Below, one piece after another: positions 320 to 13,784 of a stretch of DNA of 37,195 nt. The DNA is taken from the NCBI GenBank assembly GCA_947649355.1, contig CANSRG010000007.1, positions 1-37,195 of the forward strand, in the 5' to 3' direction. This DNA comes from an uncultured Mycoplasmatota bacterium. GTDB taxonomy: Bacteria; Bacillota_I; Bacilli_A; RF39; UBA660. Position 1 is the stretch's first letter, and each line of letters begins with the position of its first letter. Made by a program: the position numbers and the translations under genes. Under the pieces are notes generated by a model that made no database searches, was not told the DNA's origin, and saw only the letters and a program-made list of their open reading frames with translations.

Positions 320-1072
320 TTACTTTTTTTGATATTCAATATGATATAAAATTCTTACTAATAATTTCCAAGGAATAAATCTTGATAAAAATAAACCTAT
401 TTTCATTTTTATTGATGGAACAATAATTAACTTTTTTTGAAACATTTTGTCAATTCCATATCTAGCAACATATTCACTCGACAATCCTTTTACTGTAAAT
501 CCTCCTTTTGCGACTTTATTAAATTCTGTGTTTACTGGTCCAGGACACAAAGCACTTATTGACACTTTGTTGTTTTCTCTTCTTAATTCTTCATATATTG
601 CAAGTGATAATTTTAGAATGTAATTTTTTGTAGCATAGTAAGTGGATAATCTTGGCCCCGCTAAAAAGCCTGCACTACTACAAACATTTAAAATGTAACC
701 TTCTTTGTTTTCTGAGGCAAATTTTTTTAAAAATAATTTTGTTAAAATATGATAACTAACAATATTTAGCTCAATCATATCTAACTCTTTTTTTAAATCG
801 GTTTCTAAAAAATTTCCAAATAAACCAAACCCAGCATTATTTATCAATATATCAATATCTATATTTTTTAACTTCTCGTATAAAGAATATACTTCTTCTT
901 GTTTTGTTAAATCGCAAACAATTATTGTTACTTCTCCTTTTAATTCTCTTTTTAGTTCATTTAATCTTTCTTCTCTTCTTGCCACTAATATTAAATCTAT
1001 TTGTTTTTCATTTAAATATCTAGCCATATCTCTTCCTATACCAGAACTGGCTCCTGTAATAATCGCTCTCAT
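320..1072 (-). CDS. Short-chain dehydrogenase/reductase (SDR) family oxidoreductase
   Basis: A 250-aa classical SDR with a Rossmann fold that binds NAD(P). The cofactor motif TGASSGIG is at residues 6-13, the adenine-binding Asp at about 54 (CDL), NNAG at 78-81, the structural Asn at 103, the catalytic Ser in CSSAG (132-133), and Tyr145/Lys149 in YYATK. PGP follows at about 178. Length and motif spacing fit an intact enzyme. The substrate cannot be read; the Arg residues after beta-2 (ARRE, 31-34) suggest NADP preference, as in YdfG/DltE-like SDRs. The start ATG at 1072 has AGAGGAAAAT directly before it. Its own short transcription unit seems likely. Confidence 0.9.
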   Translation of the reverse strand: MRAIITGASSGIGRDMARYLNEKQIDLILVARREERLNELKRELKGEVTIIVCDLTKQEEVYSLYEKLKNIDIDILINNAGFGLFGNFLETDLKKELDMIELNIVSYHILTKLFLKKFASENKEGYILNVCSSAGFLAGPRLSTYYATKNYILKLSLAIYEELRRENNKVSISALCPGPVNTEFNKVAKGGFTVKGLSSEYVARYGIDKMFQKKLIIVPSIKMKIGLFLSRFIPWKLLVRILYHIEYQKK

Positions 1073-1311
1073 ATTTTCCTCTTTTCTATTTTAATATAAC
1101 AAAAGAATGAGAAAATTTCATTTTATATTTATTTTTTTGACATTTTTTTTATTTTCTTTTACGAATCTAATTGAACAATAAAAATGTGTTTTTTTCTTCG
1201 TTATCAATAAAGCATATGTGGTGTTGTATGGAGGTTGGTGAAATAAAAAAAGAAATAGTATTTATACTTATTTTCAATTAGAAATTAAAAATGATTTACT
1301 TAATTATTATA

Positions 1312-1352
1312 AAGAAAAAAATAGAACTATTTTCTTTCATAGATTCTATTTT
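1312..1352 (-). terminator. Intrinsic terminator after the lipoprotein gene
   Basis: On the minus strand a 9-bp stem AAAATAGAA/TTCTATTTT (arms 1344-1352 and 1318-1326) is followed by a T-rich run. A short inner CTAT/ATAG pairing extends it. The TAG stop of the gene at 1327 lies inside the hairpin. Confidence 0.7.
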
Positions 1353-2025
1353 CTTTTTTTGTCCATTCTAAAATTTCTAATATTTCAAAGTAATAATAAG
1401 CTTGTTTTTCTTTTTTGAGTTCTAATTCAGTAATTTCATATTTTTCTAAATCTTCTACTTGATATGTCTCATAATTAAACAATTTCTTTTTTGGTAATTG
1501 CATGCCAATTCGATTATCTATTTCATTTGTTTCAAGATTTTTTATTTCATAGAGATGAATAATATCTTCTGGAAACATATGATTTTCAAAATATAATTTT
1601 TCTAATTTTTTTATAATTTCATCATCAAACATCGTTATTGTTTCATAATTATAATCGTCATTTTGGAAACACTCTTTATATGGAATTACTTGTGTTGGAC
1701 AAAAATAAATTCCATCTTTTGTTTCTATCATAGAATATTTTTTATCTTCTACGAAAAAATCTTTTTTAATACCAATCAATTTCATTGTGGATGTATCATA
1801 ATATGCGTCTTCTTTTGAACGAAAATTTTGATCATAGTAGTAAAGGATATAATTGTCATTTGATTTAATAAATCCAACACGTTCTTTTTGATATTCTTCG
1901 TTTTCTAATATTTTTTTTATTGTGTGCTCATTTTTACTTCTACAACTAGTAAGAGAAAGGGGTGTACTTATAAGGGCAAGAGTACATAACATTCCTCTCA
2001 ATTTTTTTAAATTTTCTTTTTTCAT
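1327..2025 (-). CDS. Hypothetical lipoprotein
   Basis: I do not recognise the family. The product has a basic N-terminus, a hydrophobic segment and a lipobox LTSC, giving lipidation at Cys28 when counted from the chosen start. The mature part is acidic and lysine-rich with many aromatic residues (for example YYYDQN), and holds no motif I can name. An upstream in-frame ATG at 2037 exists, but TGAGG sits correctly spaced before the ATG at 2025 and a TATACT -10-like element directly abuts the 2037 ATG, so 2025 is preferred (232 aa). It follows the pyrophosphatase gene on the same strand at about 70 bases. It may be a cell-surface protein of unknown role. Confidence 0.7.
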   Translation of the reverse strand: MKKENLKKLRGMLCTLALISTPLSLTSCRSKNEHTIKKILENEEYQKERVGFIKSNDNYILYYYDQNFRSKEDAYYDTSTMKLIGIKKDFFVEDKKYSMIETKDGIYFCPTQVIPYKECFQNDDYNYETITMFDDEIIKKLEKLYFENHMFPEDIIHLYEIKNLETNEIDNRIGMQLPKKKLFNYETYQVEDLEKYEITELELKKEKQAYYYFEILEILEWTKKENRIYERK

Positions 2026-2097
2026 AATTTTCCTCATAGTATATTTTATGTTATTTTTTTGAAACTACATTTTAAATTATGTTTTTTATTCACTTTG

Positions 2098-12096: not shown

Positions 12097-12123
12097 ATAA
12101 AAACACCATAGCTTCCTATGATG

Positions 12124-12153
12124 ATTTTATCACAATGCCCCCCCCCCTGTCAA
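12124..12153 (-). promoter_or_regulatory. Promoter with G10 tract in the spacer (putative phase-variable)
   Basis: On the minus strand a perfect TTGACA -35 (12148-12153) is directly followed by ten G (C at 12138-12147), then CATTGTGA, then TAAAAT (12124-12129). The spacer is 18 bases; one G fewer would give the optimal 17. The ATG of the 508-aa surface protein is 28 bases further on. Elements seen; switching inferred. Confidence 0.7.
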
Positions 12154-12176
12154 GTAAAAAAAAAGAAACTAATTTG

Positions 12177-13784
12177 CTAATTAGCTTCTACTTCTATTTT
12201 CGCTTTGAAATTTTTTCCTTGGTTGTAATCTTGAGGTTTTCCTGTATCAATGAAACGATAAACTATTTCATATTCATAAGTAGTATTTGCTGGAATTAAA
12301 AGTGTTTTTACAATATATTCATCTTTTGTAGGAGAAACAGTCTCTTGTTTTATTGTAATTCCATTTCTTTTTACAGAATATACAAATTCACTATTTGGAT
12401 TAAATTCATTGTGAACATTCGTAAATTTAATGCTATATGGTAGTGTTTTATCACTCGTATTATTGATTGATAATTTTTGAGTAGATGTCCAATTTGGAGT
12501 AATTCCTGTCGCGATAACATCTTGTTTATGTGTTACATACAAAATATATTTATCTTTTGTTGTTACATCTAAAAGCCCTCCTGATGAAGTATCACATTTT
12601 TTATCGCATTTTCCATCATTATCAGTATCTATATTTTTATCAGGCACTTTATCCCCATCAGTATCAACATTTAAATCTGGCTTGCCGTCTCCATCAATAT
12701 CTATATTTATATCTGGAAAGCCATCTCCATCAATATCGCAGTTTAAATCACACTTTCCATCATTATTGGTATCTTGATTTGAAAGATTTTCATCTGGTTT
12801 GCCATCTCCATTAGTATCAATGTTAATATCTGGTTTGCCGTCTCCATCAATGTCAATGTTAATATCTGGTTTGCCATCTTTATCATTATCAATGTTTACA
12901 TCAGGTTTTCCATCTCCATCTAAATCAAGATTTGTTTCTGGCCATCCATCATCATTTGTATCACAGTTTATGTCACAAACTCCATCATTATCAGTATCTT
13001 GATTTGTTAGGTTATGATCTGGTTTGCCATCATTATCGGTATCAACGTTAAATACAGGATCTTTATTTCCCTTGTAATCAATGTTTACATCTGGTTTATT
13101 ATCTTTATTTTTATCAATATTTACATCAGGTTTGCCATCATTATCTTTATCAATATTTATTTCAGGTTTTCCATCTTCGTTAATATCAATATTTAAATCT
13201 GGTATTCCATCATTATCTAAATCAATATTTATGTCTGGGTTTCCATCTCCATCCATATCTATATTTGTTTCTGGCCATCCATCATCATTTGTATCACAGT
13301 TTACATCACAAATACCATCATTATTTTTATCTTGATTCATTAAGTTTAAATCTGGTAATCCATCATTATTCGTATCAATGTTAAAGTGAGGAATATGGTC
13401 ACGTCCATAATCAATATTTAATTCTGGTTTTTTATCCCCATTGGCATCAATATTCGTATCTCTTTTTCCATCTTTATCCGTATCTAGATTTGTTTCTGCT
13501 TTTCCGTCATTATTGATATCACAATTTAAATCACAAAAACCATCCCCGTTTAAATCACAGTTTAATTGGCAATTATTGTTTTCCCCTGGTCCATCCCCAG
13601 AGCCATACATTTTTACATATGTAAATGTCGCACTAACAACACCTAAAAAAAGTAGTAAAAATAATAGTAGAACAAAAACGAACGTCCTTTTTTTCTCTTT
13701 CTCTTTTTCCTCTTCTAATAATTCTTGATATTGTTCTTCATAATCAATATTTTCCTCTATATTATTTTTTTTGATATCTTTCAT
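12177..13784 (-). CDS. SipW-type stalk protein with calcium-binding repeats
   Basis: 535 aa. The N-terminal 33 residues are highly charged (EELLEEEKEKEKK-like), then comes a membrane core (34-50) and VSATFTYVK, a TasA-like junction with likely cleavage after Thr55. Residues about 72-395 are some 26 units of 12 residues, consensus IDxDxDGxPDxN, i.e. EF-hand-like/thrombospondin type 3 calcium loops. Three units are extended (L-x-NQDxxNDG) and followed by Cys-containing units, so there is a higher-order period of about nine units. The last 130 residues form a beta-sandwich-like domain ending FKAKIEVEAN, as in TasA-type subunits. It is probably a rigid, Ca-stabilised surface stalk in the SipW locus. 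Confidence 0.85.
   Translation of the reverse strand: MKDIKKNNIEENIDYEEQYQELLEEEKEKEKKRTFVFVLLLFLLLFLGVVSATFTYVKMYGSGDGPGENNNCQLNCDLNGDGFCDLNCDINNDGKAETNLDTDKDGKRDTNIDANGDKKPELNIDYGRDHIPHFNIDTNNDGLPDLNLMNQDKNNDGICDVNCDTNDDGWPETNIDMDGDGNPDINIDLDNDGIPDLNIDINEDGKPEINIDKDNDGKPDVNIDKNKDNKPDVNIDYKGNKDPVFNVDTDNDGKPDHNLTNQDTDNDGVCDINCDTNDDGWPETNLDLDGDGKPDVNIDNDKDGKPDINIDIDGDGKPDINIDTNGDGKPDENLSNQDTNNDGKCDLNCDIDGDGFPDINIDIDGDGKPDLNVDTDGDKVPDKNIDTDNDGKCDKKCDTSSGGLLDVTTKDKYILYVTHKQDVIATGITPNWTSTQKLSINNTSDKTLPYSIKFTNVHNEFNPNSEFVYSVKRNGITIKQETVSPTKDEYIVKTLLIPANTTYEYEIVYRFIDTGKPQDYNQGKNFKAKIEVEAN
12590..13571 (-). repeat. 36-bp coding repeats (calcium-loop units)
   Basis: About 26 tandem units of 36 bases, each encoding one 12-residue Asp/Asn-rich loop. 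Three units carry a 9-base extension (around residues 144, 261 and 333) and mark repeats of repeats. The units are diverged at synonymous sites, so this is an old array rather than a fresh expansion. The opposite-strand reading frames here are by-products. Confidence 0.85.

Follow-up and report, generated by a model that had tools for sequence, protein, structure and literature searches.

Does a run of ten G residues between the -35 and -10 elements of a surface-protein gene act as a switch, and does it stand alone in its genome? The question is raised by positions 12124-12153 (minus strand) of the window, by which we mean the whole stretch of 37,195 nucleotides analysed here, contig C7 of a 1.46-Mb draft genome in 86 contigs. 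A sequence-only reading had described a G10 directly after TTGACA, within an 18-base spacer before TAAAAT. This arrangement is exact: the promoter reads TTGACA-G10-CATTGTGA-TAAAAT, with a spacer of 18 nt, and the start codon of P0001 lies 27 nt downstream of the -10 element (Table 1). The same reading found the tract striking for DNA of this composition, which the counts bear out. The expected number of tracts of at least eight Gs in the window is 0.01; two G10 tracts were found, and none of 100 shuffles had as many. The terminator-like hairpin between the promoter and the upstream gene P0002 has a folding energy of -11.5 kcal/mol, with a modest z-score of -1.96. P0002 itself appears to be membrane-anchored and has numerous DxDxDG-type repeats; it matches staphylococcal SD-repeat adhesins only weakly, probably owing to composition.

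Table 1. Features of the window promoter and its surroundings, recurrent cassettes, and G tracts within coding sequence (window positions unless a locus is named)
Feature	Position	Strand	Remark
-35 element TTGACA	12148-12153 (12153-12148)	minus	
G10 tract, proposed slippage site	12138-12147	minus	one of the genome's 44 credible tracts of G8 or more
Remainder of spacer, CATTGTGA	12130-12137	minus	five sibling cassette copies have 2 extra bases (TA)
-10 element TAAAAT	12124-12129	minus	TG at 12132-12131 before it (extended -10)
Hairpin CATCATAG-GAAG-CTATGGTG, then TTTTT	12104-12123	minus	immediately 3' of the -10
P0001, 508 aa	10570-12096	minus	predicted N-terminal helix/membrane anchor, large extracellular part
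Terminator-like hairpin and T run	12155-12189	minus	between P0002 and the window promoter
P0002, predicted repetitive D/N-rich (DxDxDG) surface protein	12177-13784	minus	upstream gene, same strand, not under the G10 tract
Second G10 tract, in TTGACTTA-G10-TATGATGATACAAT at 270-301	284-293	minus	spacer 20
Predicted surface-protein gene start, MKKKKELLLIGILIGIFCVVGISYAIW..., behind second G10 promoter	2-151	minus	truncated by contig end
Cassette A, AATTGACTTA-Gn-TATGATGGTACAAT			
Cassette B, TTGACTTTTA-Gn-TTATGGTAGAAT			
Cassette C, TTGACA-Gn-TA(T/C)ATTGTGATAAAATCATCATAGGAAGCTATGGTG			includes the window promoter
Coding G9-G11 tract, L042	at or near 1484	coding	
Coding G9-G11 tract, L046	at or near 1501	coding	
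Coding G9-G11 tract, L056	at or near 1501	coding	
Coding G9-G11 tract, L075	at or near 2532	coding	
Coding G9-G11 tract, L032	at or near 1501	coding	

Distribution of poly-G promoters

The genome contains 46 raw tracts of at least eight Gs, of which two, of 50 G and 23 G, stand at contig ends and resemble sequencing artefacts. Promoter spacers account for 37 of the 44 credible tracts; 34 of these begin no more than 7 bases after TTGAC and three follow near matches of it. Of the other seven, six are found inside reading frames or where these begin, and one could not be placed. The composite pattern TTGAC-G8+-TANNNT has 39 matches genome-wide, overlaps counted, and its reversed form has none. 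The window tract is thus no isolated curiosity. Three recurrent cassette types, A, B and C, can be distinguished among these promoters, and their near-identical 5' regions show that they have been copied. The window copy of cassette C is without the TA that follows the tract in its five siblings, so that its spacer is 18 where theirs is 20. Contig ends lie within 500 bp of 26 of the 44 tracts (2.6 expected), and the repertoire is probably undercounted because the common 5' cassettes break the assembly. Tract lengths in this short-read draft are majority calls and may carry small errors. Studies of strains or colonisation in such bacteria would need the tract lengths themselves, which short-read assemblies flatten to the majority call.

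The spread of these promoters was followed with the pattern TTGAC-N0-6-G8+-N4-14-TANNNT. Within the genus it occurs in 32 of 37 genomes, with a maximum of 91 matches in one genome (overlaps counted), as against 2 matches of the reversed control in all of them. Across the family it is found in 77 of 386 genomes and 47 of 150 genera; elsewhere in the class 10 of 258 genomes have it, with few matches each. Promoter strings are common to 'Candidatus Ventrenecus avicola', a chicken gut isolate, and rabbit-gut bins labelled 'uncultured Bacilli', which were hence placed in the genus. A scan of IMG/VR for the poly-G promoter returned one unrelated match only, and no report of such promoters for the lineage was found among open-access papers. 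On this evidence an uncultured lineage of animal-gut bacteria with reduced genomes would have a very large repertoire of genes phase-varied at their promoters. These promoters are also a natural collection, G-rich and with spacers spanning 17-22 bp.

Predicted products of the genes behind poly-G promoters

All 23 clearly readable frames downstream of the genome's promoter tracts encode an N-terminal signal or anchor. These proteins belong either to the family of P0001, beginning MKLKKFKEKN..., or to one with the pattern MKKKK..LLVVGILIG...SYAxW; one additional tract is upstream of a gene for a prepilin-like protein. In a sample of 20 congeners, nearly all readable genes fall in three such surface families and one is ABC-transporter-like. 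We infer that the products of poly-G promoters are surface-exposed or secreted. One cassette-A product has PARCEL/DUF285 repeats, which also occur in surface proteins of mycoplasmas (PMC2996958).

The gene behind the window tract had been taken to encode a SipW-type, adhesin-like surface protein. The surface location is upheld by the predicted N-terminal anchor; the two other attributes are not. Compared with NCBIfam, P0001 matches no family, the SipW-cognate model TIGR04088 included, and in Pfam it has no solid match. Its AlphaFold model is fairly confident (pLDDT 80.8), and a Foldseek search of it against the whole PDB gave no match to an adhesin or any other known fold (best E 0.78). The neighbouring P0003 scores 15.8 bits against TIGR04088, below the cut-off of 19. 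On these comparisons P0001 is a predicted membrane-anchored surface protein, not demonstrably of SipW type nor an adhesin, and we have set aside its assignment as a SipW-type adhesin. It has about 15 paralogues in the genome, which have their N-termini in common and diverge at their C-termini.

In the sister rabbit-gut genomes CANPXO and CANRDF, nearly every examined locus of the P0001-type gene family is free of G tracts; the exceptions are two loci of CANRDF (L169 and L195). Tract-less P0001 homologues in CANPXO, CANRDF and CANQEG (L132-L204) have promoters that overlap palindromes, with ordinary spacers of about 17 bp in several CANPXO and CANRDF genes, and some adjoin a small divergent gene for a Cro/CI-type HTH regulator. 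It seems that genes of one kind may be subject to random switching in some genomes and to dedicated repressors in others. In two congeners a sugar-transferase-like gene stands behind an interrupted G-tract promoter (L210, L218); the two spacers measure 18 and 20.

Proposed slippage and spacer length

The G10 tract, in our view, likely serves as the length-variable spacer of a promoter that is phase-switched by slipped-strand mispairing. Mispairing would insert or delete single Gs in the promoter tract, and the change in length would alter the distance and twist between the -35 and -10 elements and hence promoter output. Tract length would presumably vary within a clone, and some 37 such promoters, serving a large set of surface-protein genes, would then yield a mixed population. 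This agrees with what the sequence-only reading had proposed, and the pattern supports it strongly: there are the 37 promoter tracts, their presence in 32 of 37 congeners and the surface families downstream, and paralogues in the genome whose tracts are flanked identically have G9, G10 or G11. The coding tracts are consistent with slippage as well. Of five that could be assessed, one is in frame; in the other four the frame is open except for a break exactly at the tract, and another tract length would restore one long open frame in each. This suggests that translational phase variation occurs too. A complete mutS1 gene is present in the genome, so switching would not rest on loss of mutS, which is rejected as its cause.

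The principle is a known one, while the scale and the lineage look new. Families of Mycoplasma surface proteins, small AT-rich genomes included, offer one likeness: in vlp, control is by a poly-A spacer and each member has its own switchable promoter. PARCEL/DUF285 repeats add to the resemblance; the differences here are the use of poly-G, the convergence of many unrelated cassettes on one spacing, and the RNA hairpin after the -10. In Neisseria meningitidis porA, gain or loss of a single base in a poly-G between -35 and -10 alters transcription of a surface protein (PMC3899988). As in porA, a homopolymer lies here between a recognisable -35 and -10 and the product is of surface type. That system involves few loci in a Gram-negative organism, whereas the present lineage of gut Bacilli has about 37 in a genome, with a default spacer of 20 and a leader hairpin. 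Slippage of G10/G11 controls the pilus genes of Bifidobacterium breve, likewise surface structures of a gut commensal, although the tracts tested there are few and lie inside coding sequence; its authors mention more G tracts, some in promoter spacers (PMC9187656).

Which lengths are active is less easily read. Ordinary TTGACA-TATAAT promoters of the same genome have a spacer of 17 in 20 of 39 cases and of 16-18 in 31 of 39. Poly-G promoters from 13 genomes have a spacer of 20 in 89 of 141 cases and of 19 in 32, with a whole range of 18-22. Spacers with a shorter non-G part have a longer tract (Spearman -0.46; as strong in 196 of 5000 within-species permutations), and the total spacing therefore seems constrained. 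As a reservation on the phase switch, the narrow peak at G10 could in part be a mutational equilibrium. Since ordinary promoters centre on 17, including those of rplU, rpoB and divIVA in the genus, which have short G runs (G5-G6) in a spacer still of 17, we favour the view that spacers of 20 or more are weak or off and those of 17-19 active. Most assembled poly-G promoter copies would then probably be weak or off, and the window promoter, at 18, would likely be an 'on' copy.

The opposite polarity, in which A-like poly(dG).poly(dC) makes a spacer of 20 with G10 the tuned, active state and other lengths give less, appears to us about half as likely. In its favour, the mode at 20 is sharp and is shared by many species and by several unrelated cassettes, and the partial compensation between tract and non-tract length is what direct selection would produce. 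The peak of ordinary promoters at 17, housekeeping ones with G runs included, argues against it, as does rough geometry: a G10 corrects the length of the spacer, not its twist. Locked promoters, in which the G tract is interrupted, were used as a possible natural test of polarity. At a spacer of 19 or less 6 of 8 downstream surface genes are intact, at 20 or more 2 of 7, a difference that is not significant (Fisher p 0.13); one of the six intact genes (L120) is cut by a contig end, and dropping it gives 5 of 7 and p 0.29. An apparent rule that a locked spacer of 19 always leaves the gene intact and one of 20 leaves it dead (4 of 4 against 0 of 2) was weakened to these figures in the larger sample. 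The difference in intactness is suggestive, and leans against an active state at 20.

The remaining explanations give the tract no part in switching. It might be a fixed promoter element of near-constant length, spread by copying of the 5' cassettes and with no role for slippage, since the cassettes are clearly copied, the majority of tracts are exactly G10 and a mismatch repair gene is present. We hold this improbable. Lengths of G9 to G11 between identical flanks, genes out of frame at coding tracts and the convergence of unrelated cassettes with different flanks on the same tract all speak against it, and G10-G11 tracts slip readily in B. breve (PMC9187656). Still less probable is that genes are switched by DNA inversion or by recombination between cassettes, the G tract being incidental. 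Repeated 5' cassettes, mosaic genes and the crowding of tracts near contig ends make recombination between copies plausible as an additional process, but it leaves the constant tract and spacing unexplained. Around the window promoter we found no convincing pair of inverted repeats such as an invertible promoter would have, the sole pair being AT-rich and 75% complementary. Poly-G errors of two-colour sequencing chemistry, which the 50-G and 23-G tracts do resemble, are refuted as the source of the promoter tracts taken together. These are internal and bounded, they stand at a precise place behind TTGAC, and they are found again in dozens of independent assemblies, with the reversed control near zero.

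The leader hairpin

In many poly-G promoters an 8-bp hairpin, whose loop is often GAAA, stands straight after the -10, and a U run comes after it. In an alignment of 21 distinct leaders, whose members were picked for showing the hairpin, 95.1% of cells are paired and 29 cells are changed on both sides; none of 500 shuffles, and no slid register, came close in pairing and covariation. In an unselected comparison the hairpin is present in 25 of 50 poly-G leaders; among ordinary promoters it was seen in 1 of 30 and in 3 of 51. Within the window's own genome, cassette B and the long-leader form of cassette A are without it. About 24 of the 156 paired cells of the alignment are G-U, so an RNA hairpin fits better than a DNA operator, and the latter is disfavoured.

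The 5' arm of the hairpin occupies the eight bases after the -10, and transcripts normally start 6-8 nt after a -10. With such a start the 5' arm would precede the gene's own transcript, so that both arms would be found only in RNA coming from upstream. Genes with short leaders have the ribosome site GGUG inside the 3' arm; in those with long leaders the 3' arm has GGUA in its place, with a compensating change opposite. The hairpin and U run probably form a shield against read-through, which would make expression dependent on the switchable promoter. They would silence read-through RNA only, by acting like a terminator and by hiding the ribosome site, and a transcript from the gene's own start, having no 5' arm, would escape, so that the off state could stay tight. 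The idea can be put to the test, and would explain how a switchable gene avoids leakage by read-through.

Taken with the spacing, the hairpin points to a module of two parts: a slippable G tract that, at a spacer of 20 bp, is about one slip from activity, and a hairpin shield that acts on read-through RNA only, copied before dozens of surface genes across the genus. We put this forward tentatively, as a proposal somewhat short of probable. If true, each surface gene would answer to its own switch alone.

Such a shield would probably be new here, although it resembles a known protection. In IS10 and IS50, a hairpin formed by read-through RNA only hides the start region, and the elements' own transcripts begin inside the hairpin. 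The putative shield described here differs in that it would serve chromosomal surface genes with switchable promoters, and in that its U run makes it terminator-like also.

One paralogue, 72% identical to P0001, is found at another locus of the genome (L121, C20:11000-14500; gene at 544-2064, minus strand). Upstream of it the -10 and the hairpin are kept, and the -35 and the G tract have been lost.
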